47,498 nucleotides of DNA from assembly GCA_003223455.1 (NCBI GenBank), contig QHVE01000095.1, positions 1-47,498 on the forward strand. Direction: 5' to 3'. Below the pieces are notes generated by a model that was given only the letters and a program-made list of their open reading frames with translations, did not search any database and was not told the origin of the DNA. This stretch comes from Gemmatimonadota bacterium (GTDB taxonomy: Bacteria > Gemmatimonadota > Gemmatimonadetes > Gemmatimonadales > Gemmatimonadaceae). Positions 33,911 to 46,921 of the stretch are shown in pieces. The stretch's first letter is position 1. Every line of letters starts with the position of its first letter. The position numbers and the translations under genes are program-made.

Positions 33911-35290
33911 ATGACCGATCTCTCTCGTCGCGACCTGCTCAAGGCCGCTGCGCTCGCCACCGCCGGCGTCGCGACGTCGGGCACCTTCACCAGCGCCATC
34001 GCCGAGAACGTCTCGGCCATCACGCACCCCGATCTGGCGCCGCCGGCGCCCGCCGCGCGGAAGTCCATGCGCGCCGTCCCGTTCGAGCGCCACGACGTCG
34101 TGCGCATCGGCATGGTCGGCACCGGTCTGCGTGGGAAGTCGCTGCTGCGCGACCTCCTCGGCGTGCCCAATCTGAAGATCGTCGCGCTGTGCGACCTCGT
34201 GCCGGAGAAGGCGCGGATGGCGGCGAAGATGGTCGCCGAAGCGGGGCAGGGAGACGCCGCGCTCTACACGGGCTCCGACCACGCCTTCGAGCAGCTCGTC
34301 GCGCGCGACGATCTCGATCTCGTCTACACGGCGACGCCGTGGGAATGGCACACCCCGGTGATGCTCGCCGCGCTCGCGCACGGCAAGCACGCCGCGAGCG
34401 AGTGTCCCATCGGCACCACGCTCAAGGACCTCTGGGCGCTCGTCGACGCCAGCGAGCGTGCGCAGAAGCACTGCATGCAGCTCGAGAACTGCAACTACGG
34501 CTACAACGAGATGATGGTGAACCGCATGGTGCATGCGGGGTTCTTCGGCGAGGTGCTCCACGCCGAGGCAGCCTACCTGCACGACCTGCGGAAGATCCTC
34601 TTCGAGACGAAGGACGAAGGGCTCTGGCGCCGCGCCTGGCACACGCGCTCCAACTCGAACCTCTACCCGACCCACGGACTCGGCCCCGTGAGCTGGTATC
34701 TCGACGTCCACGCCGGCGACCGCTTCGACTACATCGTCGCGATGGCCAGTCCCGAGCGCGGGCTGACGCTCTATCGCGAGGAGACGTTGAAGGACAACAG
34801 GGCCGATCCGCGCTGGCGCGAGCGCTACATCACGGGCGATCTGAACACGTCGATCATCAAGACGGCGAAGGGGCGCACGGTCATGATGCAGCACGACGTC
34901 TCCAATCCGCGCCCGTACTCGCGCCACAACCGCGTCATGGGCACCAAGGGGACGTTCGAGGACTATCCGCCGCGCATCTATGTAGAAGGGCAGGCGGGGG
35001 GCGAGCGATTCCAGCCGATCAACGACGATCACAAGAAGCAGTTCGAGCATCCGCTCTGGACGAAGCTCGGCGAGCAGGCGCAGAGCGGCGGCCACGGGGG
35101 CATGGACTTCGTCATGGCGTACCGCCTCATCGAGTGCATGCACGAGGGGCTCGCTCCCGACTATGACGTCTACGACGCGGCGGCGTGGAGCGCTCCGCTT
35201 CCGCTCACGGAGATGTCCGTCGCCAAGGGCAGCGCACCGATGAAGTTCCCGGATTTCACGCGCGGCGACTGGATGAAGCCGCGCGCATGA
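33911..35290 (+). CDS. TAT-exported GH109 family glycosidase (Gfo/Idh/MocA fold)
   Basis: A 459-residue protein with a TAT signal (SRRDLLKAAALATAGVA) and a Gfo/Idh/MocA domain that uses tightly bound NAD for hydrolysis of N-acetylgalactosaminides in GH109. Family stretches are RIGMVGTGLRGKSLLRDLLG (cofactor loop), TPWEWHTPVML, GFFGEVLHAEAAYLHDLRKI, LYPTHGLGPVSWY (active-site His), GHGGMDFVM and DVYDAAAWSAPLPL. The start at 33911 fits the signal. It is first in a four-gene run with a symporter, nucleotidyltransferase and sugar kinase, which supports an amino-sugar substrate. GH109 covers more than one activity, so exact specificity is inferred. Confidence 0.88.
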   Translation: MTDLSRRDLLKAAALATAGVATSGTFTSAIAENVSAITHPDLAPPAPAARKSMRAVPFERHDVVRIGMVGTGLRGKSLLRDLLGVPNLKIVALCDLVPEKARMAAKMVAEAGQGDAALYTGSDHAFEQLVARDDLDLVYTATPWEWHTPVMLAALAHGKHAASECPIGTTLKDLWALVDASERAQKHCMQLENCNYGYNEMMVNRMVHAGFFGEVLHAEAAYLHDLRKILFETKDEGLWRRAWHTRSNSNLYPTHGLGPVSWYLDVHAGDRFDYIVAMASPERGLTLYREETLKDNRADPRWRERYITGDLNTSIIKTAKGRTVMMQHDVSNPRPYSRHNRVMGTKGTFEDYPPRIYVEGQAGGERFQPINDDHKKQFEHPLWTKLGEQAQSGGHGGMDFVMAYRLIECMHEGLAPDYDVYDAAAWSAPLPLTEMSVAKGSAPMKFPDFTRGDWMKPRA

Positions 35291-37065
35291 GCACGCCCTT
35301 TCATTTCACGACACTCGACTGGGCGATCATCTTCGCCAGCATCGGCATCAGCTTCCTGCCGGCGCTCTTCTTCTGGAAGCGCGCGAGCAGCAGCACGAGC
35401 GAGTTCTTCACGTCTGGACGCGCGGCGCCTTGGTGGCTCGTCGGCATCTCGATGGTGGCCACCACGTTCAGCACCGACACGCCGAACCTCGTCACCAACT
35501 TCGTGCGCGAGCGCGGCGTGGCGGGGAACTGGCTCTGGTGGAGCTTTCTGCTCACCGGGATGATGACGGTGTTCTTCTACGCGCGCCTCTGGCGCCGCTC
35601 GGGAGTGCTGACCGATCTCGAGTTCTACGAGATCCGCTACTCCGGCGACGCGGCCAAGCTCCTGCGCGGCTTTCGCGCCGTCTATCTCGGCTTCTTCTTC
35701 AACCTCGTGATCATGGCCACGGTGAACCTCGCCGCCGCCAAGATAGGCAACATCGTGCTCGGCTGGCCGACTGGCCGCACGCTGCTCGTCTGCGCCGTGA
35801 TGACGATCTTCTTCGCTTCCGTCAGCGGCCTGTGGGGCGTGCTCGTCACTGACTCGATCCAGTTCGGCATCACGATGACGGGCACCTTCGCCGTGGCGTA
35901 CTACGCGCTGCAGCAGCCGGCCGTCGGCGGCCTGTCGGGGCTCTTCGCCAAGGTGCCGCCGCGCACGATCGCCATGCTCCCGGACTTCGGCGACTGGAGC
36001 ACGGCCCTCGCCGTCTTCATCCTGCCGCTGACCATCCAATGGTGGTCGGTGTGGTATCCGGGCGCCGAGCCCGGTGGCGGCAGTTACATCGCGCAGCGCA
36101 TGCTCGCGTCCAAGACGGAGAAGGATGCCGTCGTCGGCACGCTGCTGTTCAACGTCATGCACTACGCGCTGCGTCCGTGGCCCTGGATCATCGTCGCTCT
36201 CGCCTCGACGATCATCTATCCGCAGCTGGCCGACATCGCCGCCACGTTCCCCAACCTCGACCGGTCTCTCCTCGGCAACGACATCGCCTATCCGGCGATG
36301 ATGCGCTTCCTGCCGGCCGGCTTCCTCGGGCTGGTCGTGGCCGGCACGCTCGCGGCATACCGCTCCACGATCGAGACGCACCTGAACTGGGGGACGAGCT
36401 ATCTCGTCCACGATTTCTACCGCCGCTTTCTCCGCCCGGGCCTGAGCGAGCGACATTACGTCTTCGTCGGCCGGCTCACGACCGCTGGGCTGATGATCTG
36501 CGCCGCGCTCATGACGTACGCGCTCGGCACGGCGCGCGAGGCGTTCGAGCTGATCCTCTCGATCGGCGCCGGTACCGGACTGCTCTACCTGCTGCGCTGG
36601 TTCTGGTGGCGCGTCAGCGCCTGGAGCGAGATCTCGGCGATGATCAGTTCCTTCCTCGTCGCGCTCGGATTCTTCGTCGCGCGCAAGAACGGGCTCGAGA
36701 TCTCGGCCGAGTCGTCGCTGTTGATCACTGTCGGTGTCACGACGGTGGTGTGGGTGGCGACGACACTCCTCGCGCCGCCGACCGACGCCGCCACGCTCGA
36801 GCGCTTCTTCACGCAGGTGCGGCCCGCGGGTCCGGGATGGCGACCGGTCGTCGAACGCCTCGGCGTGACGGGTGTGGAGGACTCGCTGTCGCAGTCGCTG
36901 CTTGGTTGGGTGCTCGGCTGTCTGTTCGTGTACTCGGGGCTGTTCGGAACGGGCAGTCTCCTCTACGGACGCATGCCGCAGTTCGCGATGTGGCTCGTCG
37001 TGTTCGTCGTGAGCGGCGCCGGACTGGCGCGCGTGCTCCGCGGCTTCTGGACTCCGGAAGCGTGA
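35287..37065 (+). CDS. Sodium:solute symporter (SSS family)
   Basis: A 592-residue SSS-family (SGLT-like) transporter with about 13-14 helices. It has GRAAPWWLVGISMVATTFST near residue 45, WPTGRTLLVCAVMTIF, GWVLGCLFVYSGLFG at the C-terminus and a charged insertion after helix 11 (LAPPTDAATLERFFTQVRPA). Its length and C-terminal extra helices match sugar and amino-sugar transporters of the family. The ATGA overlap with the GH109 gene (35287-35290) shows coupled translation, so it probably imports the sugar the GH109 protein releases. Substrate specificity is an inference. Confidence 0.9.
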   Translation: MSTPFHFTTLDWAIIFASIGISFLPALFFWKRASSSTSEFFTSGRAAPWWLVGISMVATTFSTDTPNLVTNFVRERGVAGNWLWWSFLLTGMMTVFFYARLWRRSGVLTDLEFYEIRYSGDAAKLLRGFRAVYLGFFFNLVIMATVNLAAAKIGNIVLGWPTGRTLLVCAVMTIFFASVSGLWGVLVTDSIQFGITMTGTFAVAYYALQQPAVGGLSGLFAKVPPRTIAMLPDFGDWSTALAVFILPLTIQWWSVWYPGAEPGGGSYIAQRMLASKTEKDAVVGTLLFNVMHYALRPWPWIIVALASTIIYPQLADIAATFPNLDRSLLGNDIAYPAMMRFLPAGFLGLVVAGTLAAYRSTIETHLNWGTSYLVHDFYRRFLRPGLSERHYVFVGRLTTAGLMICAALMTYALGTAREAFELILSIGAGTGLLYLLRWFWWRVSAWSEISAMISSFLVALGFFVARKNGLEISAESSLLITVGVTTVVWVATTLLAPPTDAATLERFFTQVRPAGPGWRPVVERLGVTGVEDSLSQSLLGWVLGCLFVYSGLFGTGSLLYGRMPQFAMWLVVFVVSGAGLARVLRGFWTPEA

Positions 37066-37079
37066 CGCAGGAGGCTCGA

Positions 37080-37904
37080 ATGCGCACGACGCAGGCGGTG
37101 ATTCTCGCTCGCGGGCTCGGCTCGCGCATGCGGCGTGAAGCGGAGGCAGCGAGCGCGGCGCTCACTGCCGACCAGCGCCGCGCCGCCGAGCGTGGCGCCA
37201 AGGGGATGATGCCCCTCGGCGCGCGCCCCTTCCTCGACTACGTGCTGTCGGCGCTCGCCGACGCGGGGATCCGTGACGTGACATTGGTGGTCGGCCCGGA
37301 AGCCGATGAAATTCGCGATCACTTCGGGCGCACCCACGTGCCCGAGCGCGTACGCGTGCAGTTCGCCATACAGGAGGAACCGCGCGGCACCGCCGATGCC
37401 GTGGTGTCGGCGCGTCCCGCCGTGGACGACGCACCATTTCTCGTCCTCAACTCCGACAACTACTATCCCGTCGCGGCGTATCGCGATCTCGCGGAGCTCG
37501 GCGGGTCGGGGCTCGTCGCGTTCGAGGCGGAGACGCTCGTGCGCGAGAGCCGGCTCGAGCCCGAACGCGTGCTTCGCTATGCGCTGCTCGACATCGGGGA
37601 CGACGGCGTGCTGCGCGCCGTGCGCGAGAAGCCCGATGCCGACGATCCGCTCGCGCAGCGCGCCGAGCGCTGGGTGTCGATGAACCTGTGGTCGTTCTCC
37701 CCCGTGATCTTCGAGGCGTGCGCGCGCGTGCGCCCGTCGACGCGCGGCGAGCTCGAGATCCAGGACGCGGTGACGATCGCCATGCGCGATCTCGGCGAGC
37801 CGTTCCGCGTCGTCCGCATGCGCGCCGGCGTGCTCGATCTCTCCAGCCGGGCCGACATCGCATTCGTCGCCTCGCAGATGGAGGCGATCGAGCCTCGCCC
37901 ATGA
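37080..37904 (+). CDS. Sugar-1-phosphate nucleotidyltransferase-like protein
   Basis: A 274-residue nucleotidyltransferase of the glucose-1-phosphate thymidylyl/uridylyltransferase type, forming NDP-sugars. The GxGxRM motif appears as LARGLGSRMR, followed after an insertion of about 20 residues by KGMMPLGARPFLDYVL with the conserved Lys. LNSDNYYP holds the metal-binding Asp, and VREKPDADD and SMNLWSF follow the family order. AGGAGG five bases before ATG 37080 is a strong ribosome binding site. It overlaps the kinase gene by four bases. With a C1 sugar kinase downstream it would complete activation of the sugar. Confidence 0.85.
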   Translation: MRTTQAVILARGLGSRMRREAEAASAALTADQRRAAERGAKGMMPLGARPFLDYVLSALADAGIRDVTLVVGPEADEIRDHFGRTHVPERVRVQFAIQEEPRGTADAVVSARPAVDDAPFLVLNSDNYYPVAAYRDLAELGGSGLVAFEAETLVRESRLEPERVLRYALLDIGDDGVLRAVREKPDADDPLAQRAERWVSMNLWSFSPVIFEACARVRPSTRGELEIQDAVTIAMRDLGEPFRVVRMRAGVLDLSSRADIAFVASQMEAIEPRP

Positions 37905-39106
37905 CCAGGCCGGCGACGCGCCGCTACATCGTGCCGGGGCGCATCGAGCTGGTGGGCAAGCACGTGGATTACGCGGGCGGCCGCTCCCTCACCTGTGCCG
38001 TCGATCGCGCCATCACCGCCGACGCGCGTCCGCTCGACGCGCCGCTGGTTCGGGTGCGCGACGCGGCGCGGCGCAGCATCGTCGAAGTCCCGCTTCTTCC
38101 CGGCATCGAGCGCACGCACGGGAGCGCCCGCTGGAGCTCGTACGTCGTGGCCGTGGCGCGCCGCTTCGCGCGCGATTTTCCGCGCGCGCGGGTCGGGATC
38201 GAGGTTCGCGTGACCAGCACGCTCCCTCCGTCCGCGGGACTGAGCAGCTCGAGCGCGCTCACCGTCGCCATCGGCTCCGCGCTCGCCGATGCGAACGGCA
38301 TGGACTCGCGCGCCGCATGGCGCGCCGCCGTGCCCGACGAGCTGGCGCGCGCCGAGTACTTCGGTGCGATGGAGACCGGTGCGCCCTATGGTCCGTTCAC
38401 CGGCGACGCCGGTGTCGGCGCGCGCGGCGGCGCGCAGGACCACGTCGCGATCCTCTGCGCGCGCGAGGAGAGCGTCGGACAGTTCTCGTATCTCCCGGCG
38501 CGGCTGGAGCGGCGCGTGCCCTGGCCATCGGAGTACGCGCTCGCCATCGGCGTGAGCGGCGTCTCGGCAACGAAGACGGGCAACGCCCGGGCGCGCTACA
38601 ATCGCGTGTCCGACTCGACACGGGCGCTCGTGCGCGTGTGGAACGAGACGACGGGCCGCACCGACGACACGCTCGCGCGTGCGATCGCGAGCGCGCCCGA
38701 TGCGGGCGAGCGACTGTCGCATCTGGCGGAGCAGGGGACGGAGGAGTTCGACGGCGATTATCTCGGTCCGCGCTTCGCGCAGTTCCGCGAGGAGGTCGAG
38801 GTCATCGTCCCCGGGGTCGGCAGGCTCGTCGATCGCTCGATGGCCATGGCCGAGCTCGCGCTTCGCAATCAGGTCGCCGAGACGAGCTTCCTCACGCGCG
38901 CGGCGCGCCATGGTGGTGCGGTGGCGGCGTCGGCCTTCGGCGCCGGCTTCGGCGGCGCGGTGTGGGCGATGGTGCGCACTGAGGATGCGGACAGCTTCCT
39001 CGAGCACTGGCGCGCGGCGTATCTCGCGAAGTTCCCCAGCCGCGCCGAGCACGCGCAGTGGCTGGTCACGCGGCCGGCCGGCCCGGCGCGACTGGACACG
39101 GAATAG
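37901..39106 (+). CDS. GHMP kinase of the galactokinase type, altered sugar site
   Basis: A 401-residue GHMP kinase. PGRIELVGKHVDYAGG (12-27) is the galactokinase signature, LPPSAGLSSSSAL the ATP loop, GGAQDHVAIL the catalytic Asp region, and AFGAGFGGAVWA motif 3. In galactokinases the first motif normally reads GEH; here Glu is replaced by Lys at residue 20, a position that contacts the sugar. A different sugar, such as GalNAc or another amino sugar, is therefore possible. The ATGA overlap with the nucleotidyltransferase gene supports a two-step pathway: phosphorylation at C1, then nucleotide transfer. Confidence 0.87.
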   Translation: MTRPATRRYIVPGRIELVGKHVDYAGGRSLTCAVDRAITADARPLDAPLVRVRDAARRSIVEVPLLPGIERTHGSARWSSYVVAVARRFARDFPRARVGIEVRVTSTLPPSAGLSSSSALTVAIGSALADANGMDSRAAWRAAVPDELARAEYFGAMETGAPYGPFTGDAGVGARGGAQDHVAILCAREESVGQFSYLPARLERRVPWPSEYALAIGVSGVSATKTGNARARYNRVSDSTRALVRVWNETTGRTDDTLARAIASAPDAGERLSHLAEQGTEEFDGDYLGPRFAQFREEVEVIVPGVGRLVDRSMAMAELALRNQVAETSFLTRAARHGGAVAASAFGAGFGGAVWAMVRTEDADSFLEHWRAAYLAKFPSRAEHAQWLVTRPAGPARLDTE

Positions 39107-39127: not shown

Positions 39128-40453
39128 ATGCCGCTGTCGCTGACGGTCGATCAGGTCGCGTCGCTCGCTCCCGACGCCGCATCGCTCGCGGCGGGGAAGA
39201 AGCTCGCTGCCGGTCGCGACTGGTCGAACGTCGGCTACGACGAGCGTGCCCTCTGGGGTGAGTGCAAGGGCTCCGCGCTCTACCAGGTGCGCGTCGATCT
39301 GTCCGATCTCGCCGCCAAGTGCTCCTGTCCGAGCCGGAAGTTCCCCTGCAAGCACGCGCTCGGGCTCCTGCTGAAGGCGGCAGCCAATCCCGCCGCCGTG
39401 GCCACTGTCGACGCGCCCGACTGGGTCGCCGACTGGCTCGCGCGCCGTGGCGCAGCCGCCGAGCAGAAGGAGAAGAAGAAGGCCGACGTCGCCAACGCGC
39501 CGGTGGACGAGCAGGCGCAGGCCCGCCGCGCGCAGCAGCGTGCGAAGCGCGTGGACGAGGGGATCGCGGCGCTCGACCTCTGGCTCGCTGACATGTTGCG
39601 CAACGGACTCGGCACCCTGGCCGAGCATCACGATCAGTCGTGGGAACGCCAGGCGGCCCGTCTGGTCGATGCCCAGGCGCCGGCGCTCGCGACACGCGTC
39701 CGCCGCATCGGCGACATCCCGCGCTCCACGCCCGACTGGACACGGCGCGTGCTCGGGGAGCTGGGACGCGTCGCACTCCTCACCGAAGCATACAGTCGCA
39801 TCGACACGCTCGACGACGCGTTGCGCGACGACGTGCGCGCGCTCGTCGGCTGGTCGTTGAAGGACGAGGAGGTGATCGCCCGCGGATCGGCCGTCGACGA
39901 CCGTTGGCTCGTCATCGGACAGCGCGTCGAGGACGACGACCGCTTGCGCGTGCAGCGCACCTGGCTGCTCGGGCTCGAGAGTGAGCGCTATGCGCTGGTG
40001 CTGCAGTTCGCCGCCGGTTCGGCGCCGTTCACCGAGAGCTTCGTTCCGGGGACGCTGCTTCGCGCCCGCGTGCGATACTGGCCGAGCGCGCATGCATCGC
40101 GCGCGCTGGTCGAGGAGCGTCTCGGACATCTGGAGCCGTGGACCGGCCAGTCGACCGGCTACTCCGGCTTCGACGCGCTGCTCGAGGCGACGACGGCCGC
40201 ACTCGGCGCACAGCCCTGGGTCGAGCGTGTGCCGTGCGTCGTACGTGACGTCCGGCCGGCGCGCCATGCCGCGACCGGATGGCATCTCGTCGACGCAGCG
40301 GGCTGCGCACTGCCCCTCGCGGCGCGCGACCATCGGCGGCTGCTCGCCGTCTCCGGCGGACATCCCGTGCACGTCGCCGCCGAGTGGGACGGCGATGTGC
40401 TGCTGCCACTCGCCGTGATGTCCGGCAATTCATTCGAGCGGCTGAGCGCCTGA
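39128..40453 (+). CDS. SWIM zinc-finger protein
   Basis: A 441-residue protein. The N-terminal SWIM zinc finger has CSCPSRKFPCKHALGLLL (Cys65, Cys67, Cys74, His76; pattern CxCx6CxH). A Lys/Glu/Ala/Gln-rich linker (about 114-140) leads to a helical C-terminal domain of unknown fold. SWIM fingers bind nucleic acid or protein. In E. coli YehQ, a SWIM protein is encoded with YehL, YehM and YehP, whose relatives follow here in one operon. It starts the five-gene run; its stop and the next ATG share one base (TGATG at 40451-40455). Confidence 0.9.
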   Translation: MPLSLTVDQVASLAPDAASLAAGKKLAAGRDWSNVGYDERALWGECKGSALYQVRVDLSDLAAKCSCPSRKFPCKHALGLLLKAAANPAAVATVDAPDWVADWLARRGAAAEQKEKKKADVANAPVDEQAQARRAQQRAKRVDEGIAALDLWLADMLRNGLGTLAEHHDQSWERQAARLVDAQAPALATRVRRIGDIPRSTPDWTRRVLGELGRVALLTEAYSRIDTLDDALRDDVRALVGWSLKDEEVIARGSAVDDRWLVIGQRVEDDDRLRVQRTWLLGLESERYALVLQFAAGSAPFTESFVPGTLLRARVRYWPSAHASRALVEERLGHLEPWTGQSTGYSGFDALLEATTAALGAQPWVERVPCVVRDVRPARHAATGWHLVDAAGCALPLAARDHRRLLAVSGGHPVHVAAEWDGDVLLPLAVMSGNSFERLSA

Positions 40454-42084
40454 TGCAGTCCCTCGTCGAAGCCGCCCTCGTCGGCACGGCGCGTCAACCC
40501 GACCGTGCGCGCTCGGCGCTCGAGGGCGACCAGCCGGTCGATGAAGTCGTGACTGCGCTGGACGAGAGCGTCGCCCTCGAGCGCCGTGTGCTGCTCGCCG
40601 CCGCCGCCCACGACCTGTACGCTCGCGCCGGCCGGATGCCGCGCACCGACGTCGAGGCGGTACGGGCCGCGAGCGCCGAGACCCGCCCCAGCTGCCCGGC
40701 GTCGGTCGCCACGCTCCTCGGCGAGCTGCTCGTCATGCGTCCGCGCACGCTGCTCGCCGAAGCGCTTGGCCGGTTGGACGCCGCCGGCATGATCGTGCCG
40801 CCGTCGCTCCTCCCCGACTTGTTCGACCTGCGCGACCCGAGCGTGGGCGCGCTTCTTTCCCGCGTCATCGGTGAGCGCGGCCGCTGGCTGCTCTCGCTCG
40901 TCGATGACGACGCCGACTGGCTGCGGCACGACGCGCTCGATCCGGCCGAGGCGCTCCGCGTGTGGGAGGAGGGCTCGCTTCCGCGTCGGCTCGCCGTGCT
41001 GCGCGCGCGTCGGCTCGCGGAGCCCGAGGTCGCGCGCGCGTGGCTCGCCGCGAGCTGGGCGACGGAGAGCGCCGAGCATCGCACGCAACTGCTCGCCGTA
41101 ATCGGTGAGTCGCTGGAGCCGGCCGACGCTCCGTTCCTCGAGTCGGCGCTTGCCGATCGCAGCGCGAATGTCCGTGCCGTCGCGGCCCGGCTGCTCGCCC
41201 GGCTGCCGAGTTCCGAGGCGGCCCTGCGCTTCGCCGAACGCGCCGACGCGATGCTCGACTACGACGCGCCGAGCGCGCCGGGCATCCACGCCAAGGTGCA
41301 GAAGGCCGTCGGCCTCGCGCGAGCGGGAACGCTGCACGTGCGGCCCCCCGAGCGATGGGACGCGGCGTGGGAACGCGACGGCATCACGGCGAAGCCTCAG
41401 AAGGGAACCGGAGAGCGCGCCCACTGGCTCACGGAAGCGCTCGCGCTCGTCGCGCCCGAGCACTGGTCGCAGCGCTTCGGCACGGATGCACGCACGCTCA
41501 TCCGAGCGGCGCTCGAGAGCGAGTGGGCGACGACGGTGCTGCACGGCTGGTCGCGCGGCGCCATCGCGGTGAAAGATCACGTCTGGGCCGCGGCACTCTG
41601 GGATGCGTGGCTCGACGACGTGAAGTCGGGCGAGGCGACAGCGCGCCACGAATCGACGACGCGCGCGACGGTGCTGATCGCGCTCTACCGCGCGCTCTCG
41701 GCCGCCGACGCCGAAGCGCGCACCCTCGCGCTCATGCACCGTCCTGCCACGGACCGCCCCTTCGGGCTCTCCATGCTCGTCGACGCGGTGGCCGCGCCAT
41801 GGACCGCCGAGTACTCGCGCCGCTTCCTCGACGAGATCGCATCTCCGCTCGCCGTCGCCGTCGGCGCGCAATGGGCCCCCGGCACCTGGTTGGAGGTGCT
41901 CGAGGCTGTCGCCATGCGCCTCGCGCCCACGTCGTTCGCCGCTGCGCTCGCGCTCGCGCATCGGCTGGCAACCATCGAGAACGCGCCGCCGTCCCACCTG
42001 CGCGAGCTCGAAGGGTTCGCGGCGCTCGTTCGTTTACGTCAACGCATTCACGAGGAGATCCCAGGTGAGCCAGCCCGCCGCTGA
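40453..42084 (+). CDS. DUF5691-like helical repeat protein
   Basis: A 543-residue, almost entirely helical protein with no signal peptide or membrane segment. SLVEAALVGTARQP at the start and the repeated helix pairs (for example SRVIGERGRWLLSL and LADRSANVRAVAARLLARLP, HEAT-like) fit the DUF5691 family, known from its genomic association with SWIM, MoxR and VWA proteins. HEAT-like repeats usually act as protein scaffolds. It overlaps the AAA+ gene by 20 bases. Function is unknown; a scaffold or adaptor role is an inference from fold and context. Confidence 0.8.
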   Translation: MQSLVEAALVGTARQPDRARSALEGDQPVDEVVTALDESVALERRVLLAAAAHDLYARAGRMPRTDVEAVRAASAETRPSCPASVATLLGELLVMRPRTLLAEALGRLDAAGMIVPPSLLPDLFDLRDPSVGALLSRVIGERGRWLLSLVDDDADWLRHDALDPAEALRVWEEGSLPRRLAVLRARRLAEPEVARAWLAASWATESAEHRTQLLAVIGESLEPADAPFLESALADRSANVRAVAARLLARLPSSEAALRFAERADAMLDYDAPSAPGIHAKVQKAVGLARAGTLHVRPPERWDAAWERDGITAKPQKGTGERAHWLTEALALVAPEHWSQRFGTDARTLIRAALESEWATTVLHGWSRGAIAVKDHVWAAALWDAWLDDVKSGEATARHESTTRATVLIALYRALSAADAEARTLALMHRPATDRPFGLSMLVDAVAAPWTAEYSRRFLDEIASPLAVAVGAQWAPGTWLEVLEAVAMRLAPTSFAAALALAHRLATIENAPPSHLRELEGFAALVRLRQRIHEEIPGEPARR

Positions 42085-43165
42085 CGTGTCCACCATCCTT
42101 CGGCGACACGCCGAGGACGAGTACGCGGAGGAGCTCGCCGCGCTCGCCGCCGCCGACGACCGCGAGCGTCCGCCGAGCTGGCGGCTCTCGCCGTGGGCGG
42201 TGCGCACCTATCTGCTCGGCGGCACGCTGCCGAACGGCTTCGAGGTCCGCGCCAAGTACATCGGCAACGCTCGACTCATCGAGATCGCGGTGTCGACGCT
42301 CGCCACCGACCGCGCGCTGCTCCTGCTCGGCGTGCCCGGCACGGCCAAGTCGTGGGTGAGCGAGCATCTCGCCGCCGCGATCGCCGGCGACTCCACGCTG
42401 CTCGTGCAGGGCACCGCCGGCACCGACGAGGCGGCGCTCCGCTATGGATGGAACTACGCGCGCCTGATCGCCGAGGGCCCCTCGGAAAAGGCGCTCGTGC
42501 CGAGTCCCCTCTACCGCGCCATGCGCGAGGGGAAGATCGCGCGTGTCGAGGAGCTGACGCGCATGCCGAGCGAGGTGCAGGACACGTTGATCACGATGCT
42601 CTCCGAGAAGACGCTCCCCATCCCCGAGCTGGGGATCGAGGTCCAGGCGCGGCGCGGATTCAACGTGATCGGCACGGCGAACAACCGCGACAAGGGGGTG
42701 AACGATCTCTCGAGCGCGCTGACACGGCGGTTCAACGCCGTCGTGCTCCCGACGCCCGCCACGCTCGAGGAGGAAGTCTCGATCGTGACGCGCCGTGTCG
42801 CCGAGACGGGGCGTGCGCTCGCGCTGCCCGCCGAGAAACCGCCGATGGAGGAGATCCGCCGGCTCGTCACCATCTTCCGCGAGCTGCGCGACGGCGTGAC
42901 GGCCGACGGCAAGACGAAGCTCAAGTCGCCGTCGGGAAGCCTCTCCACCGCCGAAGCGATCTCGGTCATGAACGGCGGTCTCGCCATGGCCACCTACTTC
43001 GGCGACGGCGCCGTGCGCGCGGGAGATCTCGCGTCGGGCATCACGGGCGCGATCGTGAAGGATCCCGTGCAGGACCGCATCGTCTGGATGGAGTACCTGC
43101 AGACCGTGGTCAAGGAGCGCGACGGCTGGAAGGATCTCTATCGCAGTTGCATGGAGATCGTCTGA
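42065..43165 (+). CDS. MoxR-type AAA+ ATPase (YehL-like)
   Basis: A 366-residue AAA+ ATPase. Walker A is GVPGTAKS (89-96). The Walker B segment reads GKIARVEELTRMPSEVQD, with Glu-Glu (162-163) where most MoxR proteins have Asp-Glu. Sensor 1 is GTANNRDKGVNDLSSAL and the arginine finger region is TRRFN. MoxR ATPases act as chaperones that load or remodel partners, usually with VWA proteins; one is encoded two genes downstream. GTG 42065 is supported by GAGGAG seven bases before it. It overlaps DUF5691 by 20 bases. Confidence 0.92.
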   Translation: MSQPAADVSTILRRHAEDEYAEELAALAAADDRERPPSWRLSPWAVRTYLLGGTLPNGFEVRAKYIGNARLIEIAVSTLATDRALLLLGVPGTAKSWVSEHLAAAIAGDSTLLVQGTAGTDEAALRYGWNYARLIAEGPSEKALVPSPLYRAMREGKIARVEELTRMPSEVQDTLITMLSEKTLPIPELGIEVQARRGFNVIGTANNRDKGVNDLSSALTRRFNAVVLPTPATLEEEVSIVTRRVAETGRALALPAEKPPMEEIRRLVTIFRELRDGVTADGKTKLKSPSGSLSTAEAISVMNGGLAMATYFGDGAVRAGDLASGITGAIVKDPVQDRIVWMEYLQTVVKERDGWKDLYRSCMEIV

Positions 43166-43169
43166 CGCC

Positions 43170-45434
43170 GTGAGCGTCCACGTCTTCGGCATCCGTCACC
43201 ACGGTCCGGGATGTGCGCGCAGCCTTCTCGGCGCGCTCGCGGCGCTCGCACCCGACGTCGTGCTGATCGAGGGACCGCCCGACGCGCAGGAAGTCCTCCC
43301 GTTCGCGGGCCACGCCGACATCGCTCCGCCGGTGGCATTGCTCGTGTATCCGGTGGACGCGCCGAAGCGCGCCGTGTTCTATCCCTTCGCCGAGTTCTCT
43401 CCCGAGTGGCAGGCGATCCGCTGGGCGCTCTCGCATGAAGTGGACGTCCGCTTCATGGATCTGCCGCAGGCGCACCGGATGGCGGAGCCAGACCTCGACG
43501 TGGACATGGTCGCCGCGAGCGCGGAGCCTCCGCCGACCACCGAGCCGTCCGATCGTGAGGAGCGCGCCGAGCGCGATCCGCTCGACCTGTTCGCCGAGGC
43601 GGCGGGCTACACGGACCACGAGCTGTGGTGGGAGCACCAGATCGAGCGGCACCGCGACGCGACCGACCTGTTCGATGCGATCCGCGAGGCGATGCACGCC
43701 GTGCGCGGCGATGCGCCGCCGAAGAACGCGCTCGAGGCACGGCGCGAGGCGTACATGCGCACCGTCGTGCGTGGCGCGGAGAAGGACGGACGTGAGCGCA
43801 TCGCCGTCGTCTGCGGCGCGTGGCACGCGCCCGTGCTCGTCGATCACTCGACCGCGAAGGCCGACGCTGCGCTGCTCAAGGGGTTGCCGAAGGTGAAGGT
43901 GGAGGCGACCTGGATCCCGTGGACGCACTCGCGTCTGAGCTTCCGCAGCGGCTACGGTGCGGGCGTGCATGCGCCCGGCTGGTACGCGCACCTCTGGACG
44001 GCGCCGGATCACGCGGTGACGCGCTGGGCCGTCGAGGCGGCGCGTCTGCTGCGCAGCGAGGACCTCGACGCGCCATCGGCGAGCGTGATCGAGGTGGTGC
44101 GCCTCGCCGACACGCTCGCCGCGCTGCGCGGCCTGCGCTCGCCCGGGCTGGCCGAGCTGAACGAGTCCGCGGTCAGCATCCTCTGTCATGGCGAGCCCGC
44201 GCGGCTGCGGTTGGTGCGCGAGCGGCTCGAGGTCGGCGAGGTGCTCGGCCGCGTTCCCGCCGACGCACCGACGGTTCCCCTGCAGCGCGATCTTCAGGCG
44301 TTGCAGAAGCGCTTGCGCCTCAAGGTGAGCGGCGAGATCAAGCCTCTCGAGCTGGATCTGCGAAACGAGACCGATCGCGAGCGCAGCCGGCTGTTCCATC
44401 GACTGACGGTGCTCGACGTCGCGTGGGCAGCGCCGAAGTCCGCCACCCGCGGCAAGCTCGGCACCTTCAACGAGACGTGGTCGCTCCGCTGGGTGCCCGA
44501 GATGGAAGTCGCGCTCATCGAGGCCAGCGTGTGGGGCAACACGGTCGAGGGCGCAGCCGATTCGCGCGCGCGACACCTCGGCGAGCAGGCGTCGCATCTC
44601 GGAGCGCTCACGCCGATCCTCGATCGCGCGCTGCTCGCCGAGCTGCCGGGCGCGGTGGAGGAGCTGCTCGCGCGCGTGCAGGAGCGGGCTGCGGTGGGAG
44701 CGGACGTCCAGCATCTCATGCTCGCCCTGCCGCCGCTCGTGCGCGCGAGCCGATACGGCGACGTGCGACGCACGCCGACCGAGGCGCTGCTGGCCGTGAT
44801 CGGTGCGCTGTTCGAACGCGTCGTGGTCGGGCTGCGCCACGCGAGCGTGACGCTGGACGCGGACGCGGCCGCCGAGCGGCTCCGCGCGATGATCGGTGTG
44901 CAGGAGAGCCTCGGCATCCTCGACGACGGCGTGCGACGCGCGGAGTGGGCGGCGGTGCTCGGTGCCCTGGCCGACGACGACGCAGTGCACGGGCTGTTGC
45001 GCGGTTGGTCGTGCCGCTCGCTGTTCGAGCACGGGCATCTGGACGCGGGGCATCTGGAGCGTCGCGCACGCCTCGCGCTGTCGCCCGTGGTGCCCGCGCT
45101 CGATGCGGCCGCGTGGATCGAGGGACTGCTGCAGGGAGCGGGTCTGGCGCTGCTCCATCAGGACGGTGTCTGGATCGCGCTCGACCGGTACGTGGTGGGG
45201 CTCTCGAGCGACGCGTTCCAGGAGATGCTGCCGCTGCTGCGACGCGCGTTCTCCGGCTTCTCCGGTCCCGAGCGGCGCATGCTCGCCGAGCGCTTGAAGG
45301 ATCTGCATCCGTCGATGTCGGGCCGCGCGCGAGCGCATCGCGTGTCCGATCCGGCAGCTGCGGCAATCGATCATCGGCGGGCCGGCGCCGTGCTGCCCGT
45401 GCTCGCGCGGATCCTCGGAGTGAACACAGGATGA
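43170..45434 (+). CDS. DUF5682 protein (YehM-like) with two GxxH motifs
   Basis: A 754-residue cytoplasmic protein. The N-terminus VFGIRHHGPG (GIRH, 7-10) is followed by VLIEGPPDAQ (Glu34). R192 and M196 lie in a RExxM stretch, and VVCGAWHAPVL has a second GxxH (216-219). These motifs, in this order, recall the TIKI/TraB/ChaN/EreA-like fold, which uses two GxxH motifs, a Glu and an Arg. The remaining 500 residues are helical and family-specific. It is linked to the MoxR gene (4-base gap) and overlaps the VWA gene. An enzyme role, possibly hydrolytic, is an inference. Confidence 0.85.
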   Translation: MSVHVFGIRHHGPGCARSLLGALAALAPDVVLIEGPPDAQEVLPFAGHADIAPPVALLVYPVDAPKRAVFYPFAEFSPEWQAIRWALSHEVDVRFMDLPQAHRMAEPDLDVDMVAASAEPPPTTEPSDREERAERDPLDLFAEAAGYTDHELWWEHQIERHRDATDLFDAIREAMHAVRGDAPPKNALEARREAYMRTVVRGAEKDGRERIAVVCGAWHAPVLVDHSTAKADAALLKGLPKVKVEATWIPWTHSRLSFRSGYGAGVHAPGWYAHLWTAPDHAVTRWAVEAARLLRSEDLDAPSASVIEVVRLADTLAALRGLRSPGLAELNESAVSILCHGEPARLRLVRERLEVGEVLGRVPADAPTVPLQRDLQALQKRLRLKVSGEIKPLELDLRNETDRERSRLFHRLTVLDVAWAAPKSATRGKLGTFNETWSLRWVPEMEVALIEASVWGNTVEGAADSRARHLGEQASHLGALTPILDRALLAELPGAVEELLARVQERAAVGADVQHLMLALPPLVRASRYGDVRRTPTEALLAVIGALFERVVVGLRHASVTLDADAAAERLRAMIGVQESLGILDDGVRRAEWAAVLGALADDDAVHGLLRGWSCRSLFEHGHLDAGHLERRARLALSPVVPALDAAAWIEGLLQGAGLALLHQDGVWIALDRYVVGLSSDAFQEMLPLLRRAFSGFSGPERRMLAERLKDLHPSMSGRARAHRVSDPAAAAIDHRRAGAVLPVLARILGVNTG

Positions 45435-46615
45435 GCGACAGCATCTCCAACGACGAGCGTCTCCGCCGCTGGCGGCTCGTGCTCGGTGAGTCGGCGAACG
45501 AGCAGCTCGGCGACCTCGTGCTCGGCGACGCCGACGCCGCGATGGATCGTGCGCTTCAGGCGCTCTACGACGCCGACCGGAAGAGTGCGTCCGGCGACCG
45601 GAAAGGTGGGCTCGGTGCGAGCGCGCCCAACGTCGCGCGCTGGCTCGGCGACATCCGCACCTACTTCCCGTCGTCCGTCGTGCACGTGATGCAGAAGGAC
45701 GCGCTCGAGCGGCTCGGGCTCCAGCAGATGCTGCTCGAGCCGGAGATGCTGCGCGAGGTCGAGCCCGACGTCCATCTCGTCGCCAACCTGCTGTCGCTCA
45801 ACCGCGTCATCCCCGAGCGCACGCGCGAGACGGCGCGCGCCGTCGTGCGCAAGGTCGTGGACGATCTCCAGAAGCGGCTCGCCGAGCCGGTGCGACGGGC
45901 CGTGACCGGCAGCCTGAGTCGCGCGACGCGCAATCGTCGTCCCCGCCTCGCCGAGATCGACTGGCACCGGACCATCCGCGCGAACCTGCATCACTACGAT
46001 CCCGCGTCGCGCACCGTCGTCCCCGAGGTGCTCGTCGGGCATGGGCGGCGCCGCTCCTCGCTGCGCGACGTCGTGCTCTGCGTGGACCAGAGCGGCTCGA
46101 TGGCGACGTCGGTCGTCTACTCGAGCGTGTTCGGCGCCGTGCTCGCCTCGATGCGCGCCGTCACGACGCGCATGGTGGTGTTCGACACCGCGGTCGTGGA
46201 TCTCACGGACGAGCTGCACGATCCCGTCGATCTGCTGTTCGGTACGCAACTCGGAGGCGGCACCGACATCAACCGCGCCCTCGGGTACTGCCAGACGCTC
46301 GTCACGCGGCCGGCGCAGACCGTGTTCGTGCTCGTGACTGATCTCTACGAGGGAGGGAACGCGGACGAGATGATCCGTCGCGCGGCGGCCATCGTGGGGA
46401 GTGGCGTGCGCATGGTCTGTCTGCTCGCGCTGAGCGACGCAGGCGCGCCGGTCTACGACGCGCGCAACGCGGCGCGGCTGGCGGCGCTGGGAATTCCGAC
46501 GTTCGCCTGCACCCCGGACCTCTTTCCCGAGCTCATGGCAGCCGCGCTCCAGAAGCGCGACCTCGGTGCGTGGGCGGCGAAGGCCGGGATCGCGGTGGCA
46601 CGCGCCGAAGGATAG
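45431..46615 (+). CDS. VWA-domain protein with intact MIDAS (YehP-like)
   Basis: A 394-residue protein: a charged helical N-terminal half (1-205) and a C-terminal von Willebrand A domain. The metal site is complete: DQSGS (Asp219, Ser221, Ser223), Thr278 in GGGTDIN, and Asp304 in LVTDLYEGG. It has no signal or membrane helix, so it works in the cytoplasm as the partner of the MoxR ATPase. It overlaps the DUF5682 gene by four bases (45431-45434) and ends the five-gene run. The 81 bases after it contain no terminator that I could see. Confidence 0.92.
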   Translation: MSDSISNDERLRRWRLVLGESANEQLGDLVLGDADAAMDRALQALYDADRKSASGDRKGGLGASAPNVARWLGDIRTYFPSSVVHVMQKDALERLGLQQMLLEPEMLREVEPDVHLVANLLSLNRVIPERTRETARAVVRKVVDDLQKRLAEPVRRAVTGSLSRATRNRRPRLAEIDWHRTIRANLHHYDPASRTVVPEVLVGHGRRRSSLRDVVLCVDQSGSMATSVVYSSVFGAVLASMRAVTTRMVVFDTAVVDLTDELHDPVDLLFGTQLGGGTDINRALGYCQTLVTRPAQTVFVLVTDLYEGGNADEMIRRAAAIVGSGVRMVCLLALSDAGAPVYDARNAARLAALGIPTFACTPDLFPELMAAALQKRDLGAWAAKAGIAVARAEG

Positions 46616-46696: not shown

Positions 46697-46921
46697 ATGA
46701 CGCACAATCGCTCAACTCGCCACCAGTACGACCCGTCGGAGGTCGAGCGGCACGACGACGCTGGCAAGGATCGCCTGTTCGAGAATCGTGAACAGCATGA
46801 CGAGGCCGACAAGAACAGCGAGAAGACCCGGCTCGCGCGGGACGTCGCTCGGCATGGGCACGAGGTGGATCCACAGGTCTCTGATTCGGGCACGGCGCAC
46901 ACGGGGAAACACAAAGGTTGA
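46697..46921 (+). CDS. Small, highly charged protein
   Basis: A 74-residue hydrophilic protein rich in His, Asp, Glu, Lys and Arg (for example DRLFENREQHDEADKNSEK), without hydrophobic core, signal or cysteine, so probably disordered or stress-related. GGGAGGAG a few bases before ATG 46697 is the clearest ribosome binding site in this part of the window, which supports that it is made. It lies 81 bases after the VWA gene on the same strand and could share its transcript. Not recognised. The stretch 46922-47136 downstream contains only hairpins. Confidence 0.65.
   Translation: MTHNRSTRHQYDPSEVERHDDAGKDRLFENREQHDEADKNSEKTRLARDVARHGHEVDPQVSDSGTAHTGKHKG

Follow-up and report, generated by a model that had tools for sequence, protein, structure and literature searches.

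Background

Almost every E. coli genome carries the yehLMPQ genes, which have relatives in many phyla but no assigned function. The kind of system to which they belong is already known, since the YehL subfamily of MoxR ATPases has been named (PMC3893208). However, in the literature searched here, most of it open, there is no functional paper on yehLMPQ, DUF5682 or DUF5691, and the two DUF families are named in no paper of that literature (subscription journals were mostly outside its scope). The window analysed here, a contig of 47,498 nucleotides from a Gemmatimonadota bacterium (QHVE01000095.1), carries at 39128-46615 of the + strand five open reading frames (ORFs) that encode, in this order, a SWIM zinc-finger protein, a DUF5691 protein, a MoxR ATPase, a DUF5682 protein and a VWA protein. 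A preliminary description proposed that the ATPase remodels a complex of the VWA and DUF5682 proteins in the service of defence, maturation or stress response. This raises the question of whether the five genes form a genuine unit, which of the products does the work, and in what kind of process.

Organization of the operon

Genes 1 and 2 overlap by 1 base and genes 2 and 3 by 20 bases; genes 3 and 4 are separated by 4 bases, and genes 4 and 5 overlap by 4 bases. This agrees with the arrangement described earlier (one strand, overlaps or gaps of at most 20 bases). Profile searches of all five proteins likewise agree with the initial domain calls: each of the five Pfam matches (SWIM, DUF5691, AAA_5, DUF5682 and VWA_CoxE) lies above its curated cut-off (Table 1), the ligands of the SWIM finger are complete (CSCPSRKFPCKH), and the MIDAS of the VWA protein is complete and conserved (DQSGS, the T of LGGGTD and the D of VTD). 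The C-terminal 340 or so residues of the SWIM protein match no Pfam family, and the DUF5691 protein, which had been called HEAT-like, has no HEAT match in the Pfam search.

Table 1. Features of the five-gene operon, in positions of the window or residues of the protein
Feature	Position	Strand	Length	Evidence
Gene 1, SWIM zinc-finger protein	39128..40453	+	441 aa	Pfam SWIM, 3e-8
SWIM finger of gene 1	residues 52-84			CxCx6CxH
Gene 2, DUF5691 protein	40453..42084	+	543 aa	Pfam DUF5691, 6.5e-104, full-length match
Gene 3, MoxR AAA+ ATPase, YehL type	42065..43165	+	366 aa	Pfam AAA_5, 4e-37
Gene 4, DUF5682/YehM protein	43170..45434	+	754 aa	Pfam DUF5682, 5e-257
Very probable Tiki-type domain of gene 4, residues about 1-260	43170..43949	+		predicted structure, profiles, conservation
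Predicted all-helical region of gene 4, residues about 412-721	44403..45332	+		predicted structure
Gene 5, VWA protein, CoxE/YehP type	45431..46615	+	394 aa	Pfam VWA_CoxE, 4e-53

A search around the operon detected neither a sigma-70 promoter nor a forward terminator, which says little at 70% GC. Genes for a solute symporter, a nucleotidyltransferase and a GHMP kinase (35185-39106) lead into the operon. The GHMP-type kinase gene ends at 39106, and its spacing of 21 bases to the SWIM start makes read-through or a shared transcript possible. On the other side, 81 bases past the VWA gene, a small ORF on the + strand (46697-46921) with a good ribosome-binding site encodes a highly charged protein of 74 aa.

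A fixed unit across bacterial phyla

To see how far this arrangement extends, 84,980 named genomes were scanned, the 80 best DUF5682 loci were kept, and their gene order was read with profiles built in this analysis. At 63 of these 80 loci (including four in which the SWIM or the DUF5691 match is split in two) all five genes lie on one strand in the order SWIM-DUF5691-MoxR-DUF5682-VWA. Another 16 loci have two to four of the operon genes with the order kept, and many of the contigs concerned end inside the operon. The loci come from at least ten phyla, among them Chloroflexota, Planctomycetota, Verrucomicrobiota, Actinomycetota, Pseudomonadota, Deinococcota, Bacteroidota, Acidobacteriota, Myxococcota and Armatimonadota. 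Recurrence of five families in fixed order and strand at this frequency is far beyond chance and, together with the distances given below, supports the reading of the five genes as a conserved, co-inherited unit.

The five proteins have pairwise distances that correlate with each other at 0.87-0.95 (64 loci), and two Thermomicrobiales loci (L012 and L015) are at or near the top rank for all five window proteins. Among 150 sampled Gemmatimonadota genomes DUF5682 occurs in one, the window's own, and DUF5691 exceeds its cut-off in the same genome only, in one operon with DUF5682. The correlated distances, the shared relatives and the rarity within the phylum indicate that the operon is transferred as a block and that it was probably acquired by the window's lineage; its GC content (71.5%) is now little different from that of the surroundings (70.0%). 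The components are conserved to different degrees, the identity across phyla being about 80% for MoxR, about 70% for VWA and only about 40% for the DUF5691 protein, which, to judge from these values, evolves fast.

The yeh cluster as a second layout

In E. coli the order is yehI(DUF4132)-yehK-yehL(MoxR)-yehM(DUF5682)-yehP(VWA)-yehQ(SWIM). The operon profiles detect YehL, YehM and YehP with 309, 254 and 316 bits, respectively, so that all three are clearly homologous to the window proteins; their genes keep the window order, and E. coli has a SWIM protein too. The window locus thus has the composition of a YehL-type MoxR/VWA system: its MoxR protein is related to YehL, its VWA protein to YehP, and the DUF5682 gene adjoins them. 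The likeness to E. coli that had been pointed out earlier therefore stands as far as the presence of YehL, YehM, YehP and YehQ is concerned, but the order is different. The SWIM gene is last rather than first, YehQ has little in common with the window protein beyond the finger, and DUF4132 (YehI) is found at the place of DUF5691. The idea that DUF5691 and DUF4132 are homologous versions of the same scaffold was considered and is not claimed here, because no homology is detectable between them (E 0.28).

Since only MoxR, DUF5682 and VWA are clearly homologous between the two layouts, MoxR-DUF5682-VWA is the invariant core, and the SWIM protein and the large partner (DUF5691 or DUF4132) are the adaptable part. 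The core gene yehM is chromosomal and occurs in 5284 of 5426 E. coli genomes (97%). The same DUF4132-type layout is present on an Iodobacter plasmid, where a type I restriction-modification region follows the cluster (L096:15531-21743). YehQ (L090:15391-17391) seemingly contains two SWIM-like CxC...CxH motifs, CSCGANGMCRH and CDCIEGTLCEH, compared with one in the window SWIM protein.

The N-terminal domain of DUF5682

The first pointer to the nature of DUF5682 was the beginning of its sequence, HVFGIRHHGPG...LIEGPPD...VVCGAWH, which recalls the Tiki/TraB-ChaN-Ere superfamily. A sequence-profile search of solved structures with DUF5682 found nothing, and structure searches with the full-length AF2 model (pLDDT 86) were rejected as uninformative about the N-terminus, their matches arising only via the helical half, which in the model aligns with HEAT-like solenoids in what appears to be a generic resemblance. 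Because these solenoids dominated the searches, the N-terminal domain was folded alone (pLDDT 81). Foldseek found no match to this model at E 0.001 or better (best 0.13), with an Ere-like structure third at E 0.16. Realignment of the Foldseek candidates with VIA-align separated ten leading chains with Z 7.5-10.9 from a next group at Z 6.5 that covers just a short helical segment. The highest score (Z 10.9) belongs to a Tetrahymena complex IV subunit, present with three entries, which we take to be of the Tiki fold as well. ChaN (Z 9.3, 3.7 A over 141), HopBA1 (Z 9.1), Ere-like 2qgm (Z 8.1), EreC (7.8), BcR135 (7.6) and 2rad are also in the leading group, and ChaN, HopBA1 and BcR135 are known structures of the Tiki superfamily (PMC6254334).

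Profile comparison with hhalign points in the same direction. DUF5682 matches ChaN with E 1.2e-4 when 14 ChaN sequences are used (1.7e-3 with five), to be compared with 2.4e-5 for the accepted pair ChaN-TraB, 0.07-0.32 for the unrelated controls GHMP, MoxR and VWA, and 0.37 for the reversed query. Against TraB (0.064) and Ere (0.52) DUF5682 does no better than unrelated controls; however, known pairs fail likewise (TraB-Ere 0.76, ChaN-Ere 0.05), so the TraB and Ere profiles are too thin to judge DUF5682. The region matched to ChaN is motif III, and when the alignment is extended, motifs I and II come into register too. Motif I is G7-I-R-H10-H11, with G7-x-x-H10 aligned to the GExH of ChaN; motif II is E34, at the end of a predicted strand (30-33); and motif III is R192-E-A-x-M196 ... 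G216-A-W-H219, which lines up both with ChaN and with the RN..w...GA-H of TraB. All 83 DUF5682 proteins compared, E. coli YehM included, have H11, E34, R192, E193, M196 and H219, H10 is present in 82 of the 83, and Cys215 is nearly invariant; among the 30 His residues of the protein only H10, H11, H219 and H274 are at least 97% conserved. The conserved positions correspond to the catalytic His, Glu and basic residues of the superfamily as described for RRSP (PMC6254334).

On the strength of structure match, profiles and conserved residues, the N-terminal domain of DUF5682 very probably belongs to the superfamily that comprises Tiki, TraB/GumN, ChaN, the erythromycin esterases, HopBA1 and RRSP, with which it has in common the core fold and the GxxH, Glu, R..M and GxxH motifs with their conserved His/Glu/Arg. 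As far as the open literature goes, this assignment appears to be new. DUF5682 differs from the other members in that a long helical insert separates motif II from motif III, in its helical C-terminal half, and in its association with a MoxR/VWA machine. Weak matches to the TraB profile in three genomes lie outside their DUF5682 loci.

Membership does not by itself make an enzyme, and the domain might be a dead Tiki fold that serves solely as a binding platform, in which case the system would simply be a chaperone or an assembly factor. DUF5682 indeed lacks the first Glu of GExH, typical of the 2His/2Glu subset (Ere, ChaN, RRSP), and has Ile or Val at that position (8). Superfamily members without the motif exist, such as PMT (PMC6254334), and Tiki superfamily folds can be non-enzymatic, as in ChaN, which binds haem. 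That Glu, however, marks the subset and not the superfamily, since TraB members lack it as well (GTxH), and the other catalytic positions of DUF5682 do not vary at all between phyla, even though overall identity drops to 28-57%. We consider a dead fold improbable and enzymatic activity of DUF5682 likely.

Relationship to known MoxR/VWA pairs

The window MoxR protein has Walker A (GVPGTAKS), the sensor-1 Asn and an arginine finger, and its Walker-B-like segment IARVEELTR has Glu at the position of the canonical, usually Mg-binding AAA+ Asp. The pattern hARxEELTR is found at this place in nearly all operon MoxR proteins and distinguishes them from other MoxR proteins, which have Asp-Glu in Walker B; the corresponding region of E. 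coli YehL reads IVRFEEITR. As in NorQ/NorD, CbbQ/CbbO, RavA/ViaA and CoxD/CoxE, a MoxR AAA+ gene adjoins a VWA gene with a complete MIDAS, and the window VWA protein belongs to the CoxE family, like the VWA proteins of known MoxR-VWA pairs. The window differs from these pairs in having five fixed genes with an enzyme-like DUF5682 protein, in the Glu that replaces the Walker B Asp, and in having no fixed metalloenzyme client nearby.

The last point bears on whether the MoxR/VWA pair loads a client with a metal or cofactor in the manner of NorQD, CoxDE and CbbQO, with the ChaN-like domain of DUF5682 binding the cofactor and hydrolysing nothing. Among MoxR/VWA pairs, those understood best serve to insert metals or to remodel metalloenzymes (PMC13036017, PMC9976466), and ChaN, the nearest profile match of DUF5682, binds haem (according to the title of 2g5g); for these two reasons we retain metal or haem maturation as a rival explanation. 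The invariant His and Glu residues and the nearly invariant Cys could bind metal, and a yehM mutation arose in copper-evolved E. coli (PMC12409786), which is a weak hint, being one of hundreds. However, the 80 loci show no metalloenzyme gene in a fixed place next to the operon, unlike the nor, cox and cbb clusters, and the conserved His-Glu-Arg-His set is that of the hydrolase branch and corresponds to no known haem site. On balance this explanation is doubtful, if less so than a dead fold.

Proposed mode of action

We consider the chances about even that the locus is the five-gene form, which may be called type I, of the widespread YehL-type MoxR/VWA system with a Tiki-superfamily hydrolase as its working subunit. 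A more specific version, which we offer tentatively as possible and clearly less probable, is a new class of ATP-dependent hydrolase machine, in which the MoxR/VWA motor gates a peptidase or esterase of the Tiki superfamily or feeds it, and the SWIM and DUF5691 (or DUF4132) proteins are target adaptors.

A remodelling core of MoxR and VWA remains the natural reading, in line with the earlier proposal. For comparison, the VWA protein NorD puts a finger into the pore of the hexamer formed by the MoxR protein NorQ, and the partner is twisted and stretched as ATP is turned over (PMC13036017). By analogy, the window MoxR protein would form a hexameric ring on which the VWA protein would dock, gripping a target through its MIDAS, and ATP hydrolysis would pull on the VWA-bound partner, either DUF5682 or a substrate handed to DUF5682; with such a partner the ATPase would gate, load or release the hydrolase active site. 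We infer the action of MoxR on DUF5682 from gene order and co-inheritance. What changes with respect to the earlier proposal is the part of DUF5682: as a probable Tiki/TraB-ChaN enzyme it is less likely to be a passive component of the complex than its working subunit or effector. The chemistry of DUF5682 would most likely be that of a peptidase or esterase. Its helical half and DUF5691 (DUF4132 in E. coli) may be protein-binding scaffolds, and the SWIM protein may be an adaptor that recognizes a protein or nucleic-acid target.

The placement of DUF5682/YehM in the superfamily points to four residues as targets for mutation and to a type of chemistry that can be assayed, both in a laboratory strain that is not pathogenic, and so provides the first testable enzymatic idea for a long-ignored gene set. 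If the ATPase does control the hydrolase, the system would join MoxR/VWA remodelling motors to Tiki-type hydrolases, two groups that are not linked in the searched literature.

A possible role in conflict or phage defence

Defence was among the functions suggested at the outset. A defence system of this kind would resemble the MoxR-vWA ternary conflict systems described by Kaur et al. 2020 and use the Tiki-type domain as its effector. The core of MoxR and CoxE-type vWA is alike in both (PMC7159879), Tiki-type domains serve as bacterial effectors in HopBA1 and RRSP (PMC6254334), the distribution is patchy with probable acquisition in Gemmatimonadota, and among the few plasmid copies one lies beside a type I restriction system. 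However, none of the four third components of the ternary systems (VMAP, iSTAND, FtsH or beta-propeller) was detected in the five proteins with Pfam at E 0.1, the bpMoxR match in the operon is below its cut-off, and the catalytic domain is constant, with no variable effector. The text on the ternary systems names no YehL, YehM or SWIM (PMC7159879). The PADLOC search yielded nothing beyond a partial match between the SWIM protein and PDC-S62 (25.7 bits) and a QatB match of 12 bits. In viral contigs 47 stretches fit the search patterns and none was confirmed as a relative, the two patterns being short enough for distant relatives to escape them; among 72,556 plasmid records 36 have DUF5682 relatives, some of these records being really chromosomes. 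As to nearness to defence genes, which the preliminary description had proposed to survey, the flanks contain scattered single matches, none recurrent, in a scan made without a background control.

To this can be added that yehM is a chromosomal core gene in E. coli. The evidence against defence is circumstantial, and a core gene can still defend; we do not favour this role and regard it as the least probable of the explanations discussed. The hydrolase system proposed above would more readily have a chromosomal role, for example in protein maturation or quality control under stress, than that of an exchangeable phage-defence module.

Additional genes and atypical loci

No conserved sixth gene tied to the operon was found in the flanks of the 80 loci, where the clusters shared between phyla are of generic kinds (PAS/kinase, ABC and the like). 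Individual loci do carry extra genes inside the operon. In two Verrucomicrobiota (L020:7870-8880 and L023:7916-9004) a cytidylyltransferase-like gene, in the former with an additional weak HD domain, is inserted between MoxR and DUF5682, and the same position is occupied by genes without Pfam matches on a Hymenobacter plasmid (203 aa, L091:11368-11979) and a Deinococcus plasmid (78 aa, L093:9768-10004). Other in-operon genes encode a double ABC ATPase that resembles UvrA and has a DnaJ-type zinc region (L036:6453-8717), a DUF4253 protein (L041:8050-8913) and a uracil-DNA glycosylase (L027:11903-12601). On the Methylosinus plasmid pOB3b3 the operon (L095:9989-17594) has no annotated VWA gene and is followed by IS66 elements. 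In a member of Cytophagales (L024:9001-11304) DUF5682 has no other operon gene within 9 kb and adjoins a histidine kinase gene. Finally, a DUF5682 relative with 31% identity (L092:1450-3579) is encoded on the unverified 'Bacteriophage sp.' contig MT835988, which is probably bacterial DNA.
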